NCBI GenBank assembly: GCA_021414185.1
Contig: JAIOOZ010000038.1
Location: 1-35,189 of the forward strand
DNA from: Betaproteobacteria bacterium
Lineage (GTDB): Bacteria; Pseudomonadota; Gammaproteobacteria; Burkholderiales; SG8-41
Length of the DNA: 35,189 bases
Reading direction: 5' to 3'
Under the pieces are notes generated by a model. It was not told the DNA's origin and did no database searches. It saw only the letters and a list, made by a program, of their open reading frames with translations. Position 1 is the stretch's first letter, and the number at the start of each line of letters is the position of its first letter. The position numbers and the translations under genes were made by a program. Shown here piece after piece: positions 25,446 to 33,690 of this stretch.

Positions 25446-27080
25446 ATGATCAAATTGTCTTCAGGTGCGCAGGTCCTGTGGAAAAAACTGCGTGCGGCAT
25501 GCGGGCTGGAGTGTTTTCCCCTGTCCCGGAACTCGCAGCGCATGCCGGACCACGAGCGGCTGATGCTGCGGATACTCGTCGATCACATGCCCGAAGACAT
25601 ATTCACGCTCGATACCGACGGGCGATTCACGATGGTCAACACCGCGTGGCTCGTGGAGCATGGCTATGCGAGCGACAAGGGCATCATCGGGCGCACGGTC
25701 TTCGACGTGTTTGACGCCGAAACCGCGGCGCACGCCGCCGCTGAAAACAAAAGCATCATGGAAACCGGGCTCGGCCGCTATAACCAGAGCCGGGAGGTTC
25801 CGCGGCCGGGCGGCGGCAACCGCTCGATATTGATCAACAAGGTTCCCATGCGCGACGCGCAGGGCCGGGTGCTCGGCATTATCGGCATTATTCGCGACGT
25901 GACGGAGCTGAAGTCTGCGCTCGACAACCTGCGGCAGGAGCGCAACCTGCTGCGCTCCATCATCGACAGTTCGCCGGATGCGATACATGTCAAGGACCGT
26001 GCCGGCCGTTACGTCATCATGAACAAGGCGACCATGCGGCTGCGTAATGTCGCGAGCCACGCGGATGTCGTCGGCAAAACCGCGTACGACTTTTTTCCCG
26101 AGACTTCGGCCGCGGCGATCGAAGCCGAGGACCGCGCGATCATGAATACGGACCGCCCCCTGCTCGAATGCCAGCGCAAATCACGTGAGCCGAATGATCC
26201 CGACCGCTGGGTTTCGATGTCGAAGCTCCCGCTGCATGACGGGGAGGGCGCGGTGGCGGGGCTGGTCACCATCAATCGCGATATTACGAACCTGAAGAAC
26301 GTCATTGAAGAAGCGCGCAGCCTCAACGCGCAGCTCGAAGATCGCGTGCGCATTCGCACCCTCGAGCTGCAGGAAGCAAACAAGGAACTGGAAGCGTTTT
26401 CGTATTCGGTATCGCACGACTTGCGGGCACCGTTGCGCAGCATCTCCGGCTTCGGCAACTTCCTCCTGAAGGACAATTACGGGCAGCTCGATGCCGCGGG
26501 CAAGGGCAGGCTCAATCGCATCCTGGCGGCCAGCGAGCGCATGGGCAAGTTGATCGACGACCTGCTCAAGCTTGCGCGGATTTCGCGCCAGTCGATTTCG
26601 TACCGCAAAGTCGACCTGCACGCACTCGCGGCCGAGGTGGTGGCCGCGCTGCGGGACGCCAGCCCGGAACGGCTCGTCGAAGTCATACTTGAGCGGGATC
26701 TGACGGTGGAGGCCGACGCGGGACTCATGCGGGTGGTGCTGGAGAACCTGCTCGGCAATGCATGGAAGTTTACCGCCAAGCGGCCGGATGCGCGCATCGA
26801 ACTGGGGGCGGCAGTCGTCGACGGCCGGCGCGAGTTTTTCGTGCGCGACAACGGGGCGGGTTTCGACATGGTCTATGCCGGCAAACTGTTTGCGCCGTTC
26901 CAGCGCATGCATTCACAGCACCAGTTTGAAGGTACCGGCATCGGGCTGGCGACGGTCAAGCGCATCATCGAGCGCCACCTCGGCAGAATCTGGATCGACA
27001 GCGCAGTGAATCAGGGAACGACCGTTAGCTTTACCATCAGCGCGGCAGGCCCGGTCCAGACGGCCGCAGAAGCAACCTGA
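25446..27080 (+). CDS. PAS-PAS sensor histidine kinase (HisKA/HATPase_c)
   Basis: Two PAS-like blocks, H-box FSYSVSHDLRAPLRSISGFG, N and G boxes. Start set at MIKLSSGAQV; the ORF is open from 25137. Confidence 0.92.
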   Translation: MIKLSSGAQVLWKKLRAACGLECFPLSRNSQRMPDHERLMLRILVDHMPEDIFTLDTDGRFTMVNTAWLVEHGYASDKGIIGRTVFDVFDAETAAHAAAENKSIMETGLGRYNQSREVPRPGGGNRSILINKVPMRDAQGRVLGIIGIIRDVTELKSALDNLRQERNLLRSIIDSSPDAIHVKDRAGRYVIMNKATMRLRNVASHADVVGKTAYDFFPETSAAAIEAEDRAIMNTDRPLLECQRKSREPNDPDRWVSMSKLPLHDGEGAVAGLVTINRDITNLKNVIEEARSLNAQLEDRVRIRTLELQEANKELEAFSYSVSHDLRAPLRSISGFGNFLLKDNYGQLDAAGKGRLNRILAASERMGKLIDDLLKLARISRQSISYRKVDLHALAAEVVAALRDASPERLVEVILERDLTVEADAGLMRVVLENLLGNAWKFTAKRPDARIELGAAVVDGRREFFVRDNGAGFDMVYAGKLFAPFQRMHSQHQFEGTGIGLATVKRIIERHLGRIWIDSAVNQGTTVSFTISAAGPVQTAAEAT

Positions 27081-27098: not shown

Positions 27099-27557
27099 AT
27101 GAGACCCAATATTCAATGCGCCGGCGGCGAAGTGCTGATGGTGGATGACAGCGTCGATGACGTTGAGCTTGCCGTCACCGTACTTTCGTCTTACTGGCCG
27201 GCCGATCGCATAGCGGTGGTGCACGATGGCGCCGAAGCGGGTGACTATCTGTACCGGCGCGGTCGTTATGCAAATCGCGAGCCCGGGCATCCGGTGCTTA
27301 TCCTGCTCGATATCAAGATGCCCAAGGTGGACGGCCTCGAACTGTTGCTCGTGCTGAAGAGCGACGAGTTTCTCAAGCCCATACCGGTGGTCATGCTGAC
27401 CTCTTCGCGCGAGGAGCGCGACGTTCGCGCCAGTTACCGCCTGGGCACCAATGCTTACGTTGTCAAGCCGCTGGTTTTCGCCGAATTCCAGGACACCCTC
27501 AGGAGGCTAGGCGCTTTCTGGCTGAGCGCAAACGAAATGACCGAGCCAGGAACCTAG
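27099..27557 (+). CDS. Rcp1-like single-domain response regulator
   Basis: VLMVDDSVDDVELAVTVL, LILLDIKMPKVDGLELL, VVMLTSS, YVVKPL; directly follows the kinase. An alternative start lies at 27087. Confidence 0.92.
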   Translation: MRPNIQCAGGEVLMVDDSVDDVELAVTVLSSYWPADRIAVVHDGAEAGDYLYRRGRYANREPGHPVLILLDIKMPKVDGLELLLVLKSDEFLKPIPVVMLTSSREERDVRASYRLGTNAYVVKPLVFAEFQDTLRRLGAFWLSANEMTEPGT

Positions 27558-27770: not shown

Positions 27771-28238
27771 ATGGACGGCGGAACTGCGGCAACCACAGGC
27801 ACGACCGACCCTGCCGTCACGAGCGTGCTGATCGCAGGCAACGCTGCGGTCGACTTGCTGCACAGGGCGCACCTGCTGCGCAGGCTCGAAGGTTGCAGTG
27901 TGCAACAGTTCACCGATCCGGCACAGGCTCTGGCGTGGGCAGCGGACAACGATGCCGCTCTCGCAATCGTCGACTATATGACGCCGGAATTCGACAGTCT
28001 CGAGTTTGCGCGGCGTTTCCGCGCGTGCGCCGGCAAGTCCGCAACGCCGTTGCTGATGGTCACCGCCAATCACGTCATCGAGCTGCGCCATCGCGCGCTG
28101 CAGGCCGGTGCGGAGGATTTCCTCAACAAGCCGCTTGACGGTGCGGAATTTTTCGCGTGCGTGAAAATCACGCCGGATCTGCGCGCGCGCCACAGGCAAT
28201 TCGCATTGCGCGCCGTACTGCCCGCGCAAGCGGCCTGA
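27771..28238 (+). CDS. Single-domain receiver-like protein with atypical acidic pocket
   Basis: [13 protein letters not shown]..., [16 protein letters not shown]..., LLMVTAN..., FLNKPLDG. Confidence 0.85.
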
Positions 28239-28243
28239 AAATC

Positions 28244-30427
28244 ATGGATACGACAATGGATATGCACGAAGCCGTGGCCAAACCGCCAGTCCATGCATTG
28301 CGCAACGCGTCACATGCGAGCACACCGTTGCGACTGCTGTGCGTCGACGATTGCGAAGCCGATGTCGCGCTCATAGTCGAAACATTGCGCAGCGGCGGAT
28401 TCGCGCCGGTTTTTCAACGCGTATGCACGCGCGAGGACATGACGGCGGCGCTCGACCGCCAGGCCTGGGACGTCGTCATTTCCGACCATTCGATGCCGCA
28501 ATTCGACGGCACGGAGGCGCTCGCGGTCGTGACCGCCCGCAAGCTCGACATCCCGTTTATCCTGGTCTCCGGCGCGGTCGGCGAGGAAATCGCCGTGCTC
28601 GCGATGAAATCAGGCGCCCACGACTACATGATGAAACAGGACCTGGGCCGCCTTGTTCCCGTGATCCGCCGCGAGCTGACCGAGGCGGAGGTGCGGCGCG
28701 CGCGGCGCCTCGCCGAAGCCAATTTGCGCTCGAGCGAGGCCTTGCTTAACTCGATCGTCAACACCGCCGCCGACGGCATCATCGTGATCGACGAGATCGG
28801 CATGCTGGAATTCGCGAACGCGGCGGTCGAACGCATGTTCGGCTGGAAGCCGCTTGAATTGATCGGACGCAACGTCGATTGCCTGCTGCCGGCGCGCCAT
28901 CGCAACGCACACCGTCCCGGCAGCGAGGATGTCGCGCTGACCAGCGGCGTGGGCCGCGAGGTCAAGGCCCAGCGCAGGAACGGCAGTGTATTCCCGATCG
29001 AGCTCACGTTCGGTGAAATGCGCATCGACGGGCGCATCAAGTACGCGGGCATCATGCGCGACGTCACCGAGCGCAAATGGGCCGAGGAGCGCATCCGCCA
29101 TCTCGCGCACTATGACGAATTGACCGGGCTGCCGAATCGGGCGCTCTTTTCGCAACTGCTCGAGCAGGCGCTGTCGGAATCGAAGTTTTCGCAGAAGCAG
29201 GTCGCGGTGCTGTTCATCGATCTGGACCGCTTCAAACTGATCAACGATTCTCTGAGCCACGCATCAGGCGACACCGTCCTGCAACAGGTGGCAAAGCGGC
29301 TGACCGAGGCGCTGCCGCGGCGCGATACGATCGCCCGCCTGGGCGGCGATGAATTCGTAGTGCTGATGCGCGATTGCAGCATTCCGGCGGACGCCGCAGA
29401 AACGGCGCAAACGCTGCTGACTGCGGTGGCGCAGCCGCTGCTGATCGAAGGGCAGGATTACCATCTGACGGCGAGCATCGGCATCAGCGCGTATCCCGGC
29501 GACGGCGAAAATTCCCAGACCATACTCAAGCATGCGGACATCGCCATGTGCCGCGCCAAGGAGCACGGCAAGAACAATTACCAGTTCTACTCCTCGCAAA
29601 TGAACCTGCATTCGTTCGAGCGCCTGGTGCTCGAGCGCTTTCTGCGCCATGCCATGGAACAGGACGAATTCCATGTTTACTACCAGCCCAAGCTTGATCT
29701 CTTGACCGGTTGCGTAACCGGCATGGAAGCGTTGCTGCGCTGGGTGCATCCGGGAATGGGCATGATTTCGCCGACCAAATTCATTCCGCTTGCGGAAGAA
29801 ACCGGACTCATCGTACCGATCGGCGCGTGGGTGCTGCGCGCGGCCTGCGCGCAAAACCGCGCGTGGCAGCTGCAGGGCCTGCCGCCGCTGCGGGTCGCCG
29901 TCAACCTGTCGGCACGGCAGTTTGCGCAGGATGATCTGCTCTCCACCATCGTCAACGTGCTCGCGGAAACCGGCCTTGCGCCCGAACTGCTCGAGCTGGA
30001 GCTCACCGAAAGCGTGACGATGGATAATCCCGAGCACGCCGCAACGCTGCTCAAGAAGCTCAAGGCGCTCGGCATCCGGCTCGCGATCGACGATTTCGGC
30101 ACCGGCTATTCCTCGCTGAGTTATCTCAAGCGGTTCCCGATCGATAACGTCAAGATCGACCGCTCCTTCATCAAGGATATCCCCGATGACGAAGACGACG
30201 TCGCAATCACGCAGGCGGTCATCGCAATGGCGCACAGCCTGCGCCTCAAGGTCATTGCGGAAGGGGTCGAATCAGAGCAGCACGTCGAGTTCCTGCGCGA
30301 GCATGGATGCGACGAGGCGCAGGGCTATCTGTTCGGCGCGCCAATGCCGGCGGACGAGTTCAGAGAGGCGATGGTACGTTGCGCAAACGGGATTCCGCTG
30401 CGTGCCAGGCTGACGAACCGGCCCTGA
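28244..30427 (+). CDS. REC-PAS-GGDEF-EAL c-di-GMP turnover protein
   Basis: REC ([24 protein letters not shown]), [55 protein letters not shown]; start trimmed. Confidence 0.95.
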
Positions 30428-30585
30428 TCCAATCCACTTGCCGGTTTCACGGCGCGGCCCGGTTGTCGCGGCTATTGTGCGAATTGCGCGACAAATCCGT
30501 CTCTATTCCGAAGTTTCGGGCGGCCGCCCGCCGCCATAATCCTTTTCAACAGGTGGCGCCGCCGCCTGCCGAGGGAGGTTTTATC

Positions 30586-33500
30586 ATGGGGCAACCGGCG
30601 ATCCAATCCAAATTGAGCGTGGCGCACGACGCGACGCGTGGCGCCGATGCTGAAGGCACACCGGACGTGCGCACCATCAAGGAGGCAATTGCGCGCGCCG
30701 AGGCCGAGACCAGCGCCACGCTGGCCGCCGAGACGCGCGGAGCCTGGGAAGACCATGCCCGCAGCCGTGCCACCGAACGCGCGAAAACCGAACATGAAGC
30801 GCGTCAGGAACTCGAACGCCGCGCGCGCGCCGATGAAGAAGCTGCGGAGGCAGCCCGCGCGCGCATTGCGGCGGAGCGTGTATTGCACGAGGAAGCATTG
30901 GCCCGCCGCGCTGCCGAAAGCGAAGCGTTGCGCGAAACCCAGAAACGGCTTGAGACCGAACGCGCAGCCACGCGTGCCGCCGACGAAAGGGCCGCTGCCG
31001 AACGCGCGGCCCACAGCCGGGCCGAGGGCAGACTGGCCGAGGAGCGCGCCGCCACCGAGCGTGCCCGCGTGGCCATGCAGGAATTGTCGGAATTTACCGA
31101 GCAACTGCGCAGCGGTGAAAAAGCAAGCCGCGAAGAAGCCTTGCGCGCCGCGGCGTTTCACCGCGCCCGGGTCGCGGCTGAACAGCGCGCTTTGGAGCAA
31201 TCGCAATTGCGCGTGCAGGCAGAAAGCGCCGCTGCGGCAGAAGCCGAACAGCGTGCGGTGGCCGAAACCCGCCTGCGCGACGGCGCGCTGGCGCAGGCCG
31301 AGTCGGAAGGGCAATTGCGTCTACTCGCAGAGGCGAGGGTGGCGGCCGAGGCCAAGGTCGCCGCCGAAGCGGAGGCCAGGGTCAAGGCCGAGCAAGCGGC
31401 AGTGGCCGCCGTGCAGGGCCGGAGCTTGAGCGAAGCGCAGGCGCGGGAATCCGCACAGCAGCGCGTGCGGATCGAACAGGAACTTGCGCAGACGGCCGCT
31501 GCCGCCGCGCAGCAGGCGGCGCGGGTATGCGCCGAAGCCGCGGCGCGCAACCGCGCGCAGGCGCGCGAACTCGCCGAAATCGAGGGCAAGCTCACAGCTG
31601 AAATCCACGCGCGCGCGGCCGCCGAAGCGCGCGCGCAGGCGGCACATGAGCTGCGGCGAGCAGCCGACGAGCGCGCGGAAGCGGAACAGAGGGCGCGCGA
31701 AGAAGCAGAAGCTCGCGTGCATGCCGAATCGCGCGCGCTGGCCGAGGCACGTTTGCGCCAGGCGGCCGAAACGCGCGGACGGGAGGAGGCGGCCGAACTG
31801 GCCGCGGCGGAACGCGAGGCGGCGGCGCTCGCGCAGGCGCGCGCCGAACTCGACGCGCTGACCGCCGAAGTCACGCGCGCGCGCATTACCGCCGAAAGCG
31901 AATTCAAACGCAAGGCCGAAGACCGGCTTGCGCTGGAAGCACAGGCACGCAGCGAAGCCGAAGCGCGCCTTGCCGCGGAAGCGGAACTCGAGCGCATTGC
32001 GCAGGCGCGCGTCAATGCCGAGCAACTCGCCCGCGATGCCGCCAAATTGAGCGTGCAGGCGCAGGCGCGCGAGTTCGAGCAGCAGCAAGCTGCTTTGGTC
32101 GCCGAACGCAATGCGATAGCCGCGGCGGAGCTGCACGCCCAGGCCCATGCGGAATATGCGGCGCAATCCCGGGCGCGCGCCGCCGCCGAGCATGACGCGA
32201 TTGCGGAAACAGAAATACGCCACGCGGCGGAAGCCGAAGCGATTGCAGCCTCCCGCATGCGCGAGCAAGCCGAACGCGAACTGGCGATTGCAGCGGACGA
32301 GCGTTCTCGTATCGAAGCGGCTGCGCTGCGCGAGGCGGCGGAACGTCGCGAGCGCGAGCAGGAGGCCGCGTCAGTCGCACGCGCGGCCGAACATGCCGAC
32401 CGCGCCGCGCGGCGCGCCGCGGAAGAATGCGCGGCGATGGCCCTGCAACTGGCTGCAACGGCGAACGCGCGCGCCGATTCAGAGGCAGCTGCGCAGCGCG
32501 AACTGGATGGCCGCCGCGCCACGGAGGCCGCGGCACTGGCTGCGGCCGAGAAAAGGCGCAGCCTTGAACTGGCCGCGCGCGCCGAGCTGGAGCAACGCGC
32601 GGCGGCTGACCGGGTTCTGGCACAAGAAGCCGATGAACGTCGCCGCGCGGAAAGTGCCGCGCTGGCGGCAACCGAAAAGCGGCGCAGAAACGAGCGCCGG
32701 TTCCACGCCGCGTCGAAGGCGCGCGAGTACGCGGAGTCAGAGCTTGCCGCGGTCGCAGCGACGCGCGCCCGTACCGAACTCGAACTCGCAGTCGAAGCGA
32801 ACAAGCGCGCCGGGGGCGAATGCGAAATGTTGCGAGCAACGCAGCAACGCCTGCTCTCCGAGCAACGCGCGAGCCTGGCATACGAAGCCCAGATCGACGC
32901 CGAACGGCTTGCAGCGACGGCCGGGCAGGTTGCGGAAAATTCGGCATGGGCGCGCGTGCAGACGCTGCGCGCGGCGACTGCCGCGCACCGCGCACGCGCC
33001 GCCGCCGAAAAACGGCGCGCGGCCGCAGCGCAAAAGCTCGAGCGCGCCCAGCAGGCCGCGGCGGAAGCGGCGCACGCGCGCGAAATCGAATGCGAATGCT
33101 TGCAGCAAGCCGAACAGGCACGGGCTGCGGCGGAACTCGAAACGGGTGCCGCTGCTGAAGCAGCGCGCGCCGCGCACGAAGCCGCTGCGACCGCGGCGTG
33201 CGAACGTACAAGCGCGGAGCGGCAACGCGATCTGCAAATGCAGGCGGCGCTGAGCGCCGAACGCGCGGCGTCTGCGCTGGCGCTGGCTGCGCAAAAAATC
33301 GCAGCCGAGGCCGAACAGGCAGCCATTGCGCGCCATGCCGCCGAAGTCGCGGCGACCCGTGCCCTGGAATTGAAGCTGCAGCAGGATCGCGAATTCGCTG
33401 CAGCCGCCGAGGCGCAACGCGCGGCACTTGAGTCGGAGCCGCGAGGCCTGCGCAGATGGGTGTCGGTGCTGCGGCCCTATTCCGCTGCTGGCGCCGCTGC

Positions 33501-33690
33501 GGTTTGCGGAATGTTATCCACGGTCGCGCTGATCGGTGTTGTGGCAGCGCCCCGCGCAACGGAAACAATGCTGTTGTCGTCGCAGCCCCGACCCGCCGCC
33601 GCAGCAGTCGCCTGCCAATTGTGCGCAACTGCCGAAGACGGGTTGCAGTTGAAACTGGCAACGTCGCTCGCAAAAGCCGGTGAACGATAA
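30586..33690 (+). CDS. Very long Ala/Glu/Arg-rich, proline-free helical (coiled-coil or single-alpha-helix) protein with C-terminal TM segment
   Basis: 1034 aa from ATG at 30586 preceded by the RBS-like GAGGGAGG; AEAR/AAE-type repeats throughout; TM-like YSAAGAAAVCGMLSTVALIGVVAA near the C-terminus. Confidence 0.85.
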   Translation: MGQPAIQSKLSVAHDATRGADAEGTPDVRTIKEAIARAEAETSATLAAETRGAWEDHARSRATERAKTEHEARQELERRARADEEAAEAARARIAAERVLHEEALARRAAESEALRETQKRLETERAATRAADERAAAERAAHSRAEGRLAEERAATERARVAMQELSEFTEQLRSGEKASREEALRAAAFHRARVAAEQRALEQSQLRVQAESAAAAEAEQRAVAETRLRDGALAQAESEGQLRLLAEARVAAEAKVAAEAEARVKAEQAAVAAVQGRSLSEAQARESAQQRVRIEQELAQTAAAAAQQAARVCAEAAARNRAQARELAEIEGKLTAEIHARAAAEARAQAAHELRRAADERAEAEQRAREEAEARVHAESRALAEARLRQAAETRGREEAAELAAAEREAAALAQARAELDALTAEVTRARITAESEFKRKAEDRLALEAQARSEAEARLAAEAELERIAQARVNAEQLARDAAKLSVQAQAREFEQQQAALVAERNAIAAAELHAQAHAEYAAQSRARAAAEHDAIAETEIRHAAEAEAIAASRMREQAERELAIAADERSRIEAAALREAAERREREQEAASVARAAEHADRAARRAAEECAAMALQLAATANARADSEAAAQRELDGRRATEAAALAAAEKRRSLELAARAELEQRAAADRVLAQEADERRRAESAALAATEKRRRNERRFHAASKAREYAESELAAVAATRARTELELAVEANKRAGGECEMLRATQQRLLSEQRASLAYEAQIDAERLAATAGQVAENSAWARVQTLRAATAAHRARAAAEKRRAAAAQKLERAQQAAAEAAHAREIECECLQQAEQARAAAELETGAAAEAARAAHEAAATAACERTSAERQRDLQMQAALSAERAASALALAAQKIAAEAEQAAIARHAAEVAATRALELKLQQDREFAAAAEAQRAALESEPRGLRRWVSVLRPYSAAGAAAVCGMLSTVALIGVVAAPRATETMLLSSQPRPAAAAVACQLCATAEDGLQLKLATSLAKAGER

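Follow-up and report, generated by a model that had tools for sequence, protein, structure and literature searches.

This locus raises the question of what a protein of more than a thousand residues, almost free of proline and encoded beside two-component and c-di-GMP signalling genes, could do for the cell, and whether it is a real protein at all. The window analysed here is a stretch of 35,189 nucleotides from the Betaproteobacteria bacterium contig JAIOOZ010000038.1. An earlier, sequence-only reading had placed in it an open reading frame of 1034 codons, here called the rod gene, and its position was confirmed: the gene starts with an ATG at 30586 and its stop codon ends at 33690 (30586..33690, + strand; ORF, orthologues and omega). 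A ribosome-binding site, GAGGGAGG, is found at 30571..30578 (+), with GGAGG 7 nt 5' of the ATG. An alternative in-frame ATG at 30307 would give a protein of 1127 residues, but would overlap the upstream gene, and in the alignment the starts of the relatives correspond to the ATG at 30586 and not to that at 30307.

One explanation would be a functionless low-complexity ORF, an artefact of GC-rich DNA. Long antisense ORFs in the same DNA speak for it, such as a Ser/Ala/Arg-rich frame of 722 residues inside the rod gene (31158-33326, - strand); this antisense ORF is a composition effect. The rod DNA contains no 21-bp or 42-bp array that would indicate an origin by tandem duplication. Using the C-terminal 87 residues as query, four relatives were found within the genus, and the N-terminal block retrieved one more, from G011, which is cut by a contig end. 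The genus alignment sets four relatives, three full-length and the partial protein of G007, against the window protein, to which they are 50-52% (full-length) and 36% (G007) identical. No gap interrupts residues 16-850 (about 835 residues) when the window protein is aligned with the three full-length relatives, and the indels of the genus relatives lie in the N-terminus, towards the end of the helix and in the tail. Omega was 0.25 at a dS of 0.27 for G001 and the partial G007, which form the closest pair, and values of 0.18-0.25 were obtained among the three full-length relatives; pairs with the window protein gave 0.27-0.48, less reliable since dS exceeds 1. Purifying selection on the rod is strongly supported by these ratios. 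Together with the gap-free conservation, the ribosome-binding site and the conserved ends and gene order described below, it leaves the artefact a negligible probability. The rod gene is real and conserved, and the low-complexity artefact of which the sequence-only reading had warned is contradicted by an omega of about 0.2 in a gap-free rod.

The prolines of the protein are at positions 4, 26, 952, 964, 989, 1001 and 1003, leaving a proline-free heptad rod of 925 residues (27-951; 30664..33438, +), composed of 33% A, 16% E, 14% R, 7% L and 7% Q. At a proline content of 2-5%, the chance probability of such a gap is 8e-9 to 2e-21, and all the relatives examined likewise contain a giant tract without proline, 306-1,677 residues long. 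Glutamate and arginine recur in the window rod with a period of 7.00 residues, indicating that the AEAR..AAE motif noticed earlier reflects a real heptad; the proline-free span noticed with it is confirmed by the proline positions. A single-sequence AlphaFold2 model, with a helix at residues 28-949 interrupted by short low-confidence breaks (pLDDT 57), weakly supports a rod. Its length would be about 137 nm for an unbroken rod (922 residues in helix x 0.1485 nm), close to the 140 nm first proposed.

The spacing of conserved residues bears on the kind of helix. Identity between orthologues has a period of exactly 3.50 residues in the genus (power 24.3; the highest shuffle value was 10.7), as well as in g6 (37.7) and f8 (39.2), with three proteins each and 42-46% rod identity. 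The g8 pair, 69% identical and hence a less divergent set, gave a power of 59.6 at the same period, and the f25 pair showed no 3.50 period (6.1, below the shuffle maximum of 10.6). Across the rods, residues and conservation show periods of 3.50, 4.67 and 7.00. A free helix has a period of about 3.6. R-x-x-x-E, with R at i and E at i+4, is enriched in six rods (z 10-15), and hydrophobic pairs at i+3, i+4 and i+7 are not enriched in the rods. The best-conserved heptad positions are mostly R (identical in 63% of columns) and E (52%), suggesting that the conserved stripe consists of Ala with Arg/Glu and is not mainly hydrophobic. The very high Ala/Glu/Arg content and the missing enrichment of hydrophobic pairs would also fit a single alpha helix, or an elastic helix like that of TolA, instead of a coiled coil. 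This is improbable, given that the periods are 3.50, 4.67 and 7.00 instead of 3.6 and that R-to-E at i+4 outweighs E-to-R at i+4, ER/K single helices being usually described with an E-to-R preference; a TolA-like helix would in addition call for a membrane segment at the N-terminus and a globular domain at the C-terminus, neither of which is present. A multi-stranded coiled coil is favoured because the conservation period is exactly 3.50, and a coiled coil with a conserved face at this spacing is well supported by the sequences compared. The sequence-only reading had offered either structure; of the two, its coiled coil is the more probable. Gap-free blocks of 793 (g6), 1,252 (f8) and 1,253 residues (g8) point to a strict register or length of the rods, less strongly for the close g8 pair.

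The sole hydrophobic segment of the window protein comprises residues 967-988 (33484..33549, +; sequence, alignment and flank charges) and is preceded by an Arg-rich interface, RRWVSVLRPY; no such segment is found at the N-terminus. In 11 of 12 members, the 15 residues before the membrane segment hold more lysine and arginine than those that follow it; in the remaining member the numbers are equal. This bias and the absent N-terminal hydrophobic segment favour a cytoplasmic rod, so that the N-terminus and rod would lie in the cytoplasm and the C-terminal tail of 46 residues (989-1034; 33550..33687, +) in the periplasm, as judged by sequence and the positive-inside count. The membrane anchor proposed by the sequence-only reading was upheld at 967-988, whereas its CxxC tail was not borne out by the relatives: CQLC (residues 1010-1013; 33613..33624, +) is not conserved in the alignment, and none of the four genus relatives whose sequence extends to the C-terminus has a CxxC. 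The label tail-anchored had to be dropped, since it applies to membrane segments within about 30 residues of the C-terminus and 46 residues follow here. What the tails do share is L[KR][LMFVI], which occurs as LKL at residues 1022-1024 of the window protein, within GLQLKLATSL (33640..33669, +). It is present in 12/13 lineages, against a mean of 1.2 and a maximum of 6 in 5,000 shuffles, an optimistic comparison because the motif was picked after inspecting the tails; the four genus relatives keep just its L-K.

Homology across the order begins with an N-terminal signature at residues 30-92 (TIKEAIARAEAET...AWEDH...; 30673..30861, +). The N-terminal profile matched 13/74 genomes of the bacterial family and, with added members, 37/398 genomes of the order (E<=1e-5), where some of the weaker matches may be unrelated coiled coils. 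In a class sample of 369 genomes, it matched the window's own genome alone at E<=1e-7, and none outside the order. Members have proline-free rods of about 300-1,700 residues, and a C-terminal membrane segment is present in many of those inspected and missing from some. The window protein matches profiles A3/A5, being itself among the profile sequences, and combines the N-terminal signature, the proline-free heptad rod and the C-terminal membrane segment with L[KR][LMFVI]. By these shared features, it belongs to an unnamed order-wide family. The window protein had no Pfam or NCBIfam match, and seven other members matched no Pfam or NCBIfam family, except for one g8 match to an NCBIfam adhesin far below cut-off. 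Searches with the rod of the PDB, and of plasmids and phages by tblastn, gave no match, and no description of the family was found in the open-licence literature, in agreement with the earlier view of an undescribed protein. The known families considered at that time do not apply: phasin identity was rejected for lack of a Phasin match in Pfam or NCBIfam, and TolA identity because the membrane segment is C-terminal and neither a TolA C-terminal domain nor any known domain is present. Some giant rods (L031, L033, L080 and L091) begin with a second N-terminal type (SRLLDSIKQAERSR, LSKLLDNIKNA), which we take to bear a loose resemblance to the start of GspB-type proteins.

The gene neighbourhood bears on the function. 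In the window, a flagellar cluster is located upstream of the rod gene, and the following genes, assigned by Pfam and all on the + strand, form its signalling neighbours: a PAS histidine kinase of the same cluster (25542..27080), a single-domain response regulator (27099..27557), a response-regulator-like protein (27771..28238) and, directly upstream, a REC-PAS-GGDEF-EAL protein (28157..30427). The c-di-GMP and two-component context reported at the outset is thus correct, and the check proposed with it, for homologues and synteny, gave homologues in many lineages of the order and the GGDEF-EAL gene followed by the rod gene in G001, G002, G011 and G013. The gene order MCP-CheV-CheV-CheY-CheZ-CheA-GGDEF/EAL-rod occurs in G001 and G002, the names besides CheA, CheZ and GGDEF-EAL being read from the sequences. 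Besides its full-length rod gene, G011 carries a paralogue of 457 residues (L018:6657-8030) shortly downstream of CheY-CheZ, from which a small called ORF separates it. The rod is preceded by CheD, CheB and HDOD genes in another family (f11) and by a REC-HD-GYP gene in G010. In G028 (L092:3605-6217), REC and HD-GYP (HD_5) are fused to a proline-free Ala/Glu rod in a protein cut by the contig end; this rod is a weaker family match, from a genome without a FliG match. Other contexts are different, with the rod between thiG and trmB in g6, f24 and f19, and before trmL in g8. G001, G002 and G007 have a Ser/Thr kinase-HDOD gene (L009:11831-14350) convergent to the rod gene.

Within the bacterial family, the genomes with a rod match are all FliG-positive. 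FliG was detected in 13/13 rod genomes versus 26/74 overall (p 1e-7 by Fisher's test, and 3e-6 with stratification by genus), in a set whose genomes are not independent and many of which are incomplete. The three rod genomes of g8 are its three FliG genomes. In the order the association is weaker than in the family, with FliG in 32/37 rod genomes versus 270/398 (p 0.006), and rod genomes without detected FliG include G218 and G283. G007, outside the 13, keeps the 3' part of the rod alone and has no detected FliG; a 5'-truncated fliF and the truncated rod are joined back to back (L010:6482-9905), and the start of fliG is fused to fliJ, an arrangement that misassembly or flagellar decay could explain. 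FliG-positive genomes lacking the rod were searched for divergent rods in the vicinity of FliG or CheZ, and none was found; in G004, the contig ends 150 nt past the GGDEF-EAL gene, making absence of the rod there unsafe. The gene order in relatives, the FliG-positive family genomes and the REC-HD-GYP fusion give the link to flagella and c-di-GMP more strength than the sequence-only reading could have known.

The architecture of the protein is well supported; its function we infer from this context. We favour, with a probability of roughly one half, a coiled-coil scaffold that is anchored in the inner membrane and serves motility and c-di-GMP signalling, similar to PodJ or a golgin. By docking on a periplasmic partner, the tail motif would fix the site of the anchor, and the N-terminal signature would be kept at a distance from the membrane set by the defined length of the rod, estimated at about 137 nm here and at as much as about 250 nm in relatives. 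The signature, in turn, may collect chemotaxis, flagellar or c-di-GMP signalling proteins, for example the adjoining GGDEF-EAL response regulator, so that the protein would work for the motility system as PodJ does, or as a golgin. A general rod of the envelope or cell architecture, acting as a spacer, a mechanical element or an organiser of nucleoid and membrane, is a possible but rather doubtful alternative, with the flagellar link arising through shared neighbourhoods or lifestyle. The thiG-rod-trmB and rod-trmL contexts in several genera would suit such a rod, as would the rods of G218 and G283 without detected FliG; however, the family rods are confined to FliG-positive genomes even outside motility operons (g6 and g8), and paralogues and a fusion recur near chemotaxis and c-di-GMP genes.

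The proposed signalling scaffold has partial counterparts among known systems. PodJ, a polar scaffold of Caulobacter, has cytoplasmic coiled coils, one membrane segment and a periplasmic C-terminus, and is a scaffold for a histidine kinase (PMC8980812). The window protein resembles it in its predicted cytoplasmic coiled coil and single membrane segment, a likeness at the level of sequence; PodJ, however, has six separate coiled coils and a disordered region instead of one long rod, and periplasmic TPR and peptidoglycan-binding domains instead of a 46-residue tail without Pfam match. The polar landmarks HubP/FimV, large and tethered to the membrane, organise chemotaxis arrays and flagella (PMC8789113), but the periplasmic LysM, acidic repeats and C-terminal TPR of HubP were not found in the window protein with Pfam or NCBIfam. 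Golgins are anchored in the membrane by their carboxy terminus and reach into the cytoplasm with an extended coiled coil (PMC4707255). They are eukaryotic Golgi tethers, alike in layout, and homology is not claimed.

Domain II of TolA is likewise a helical rod, charged and rich in Ala, with a connection to the inner membrane, but TolA has an N-terminal anchor and is periplasmic, whereas the window rod has a C-terminal anchor and is probably cytoplasmic. Crescentin and AglZ are long bacterial coiled coils, and AglZ couples a response regulator to a coiled coil, an arrangement resembled by the REC-HD-GYP-rod fusion of G028. Scaffolds of the crescentin/AglZ type gave no sequence match to the rod here and, to our knowledge, lack a C-terminal membrane segment and the tail motif.

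A few model bacteria rely on large coiled-coil scaffolds to organise their poles and signalling, and we know of no described bacterial scaffold with the layout of the rod protein. A broader proposal, put forward tentatively and rated rather unlikely by ourselves, is that the order has its own fixed-length inner-membrane rods (about 45-250 nm), with an interface largely of Ala and conserved Arg/Glu, which would set the cytoplasmic depth of motility and c-di-GMP signalling proteins and be a bacterial counterpart of golgins. If this were true, rods that outsize most bacterial machines, with a near-fixed length in each group and a polar interface, would be a means of setting distances inside the cell.
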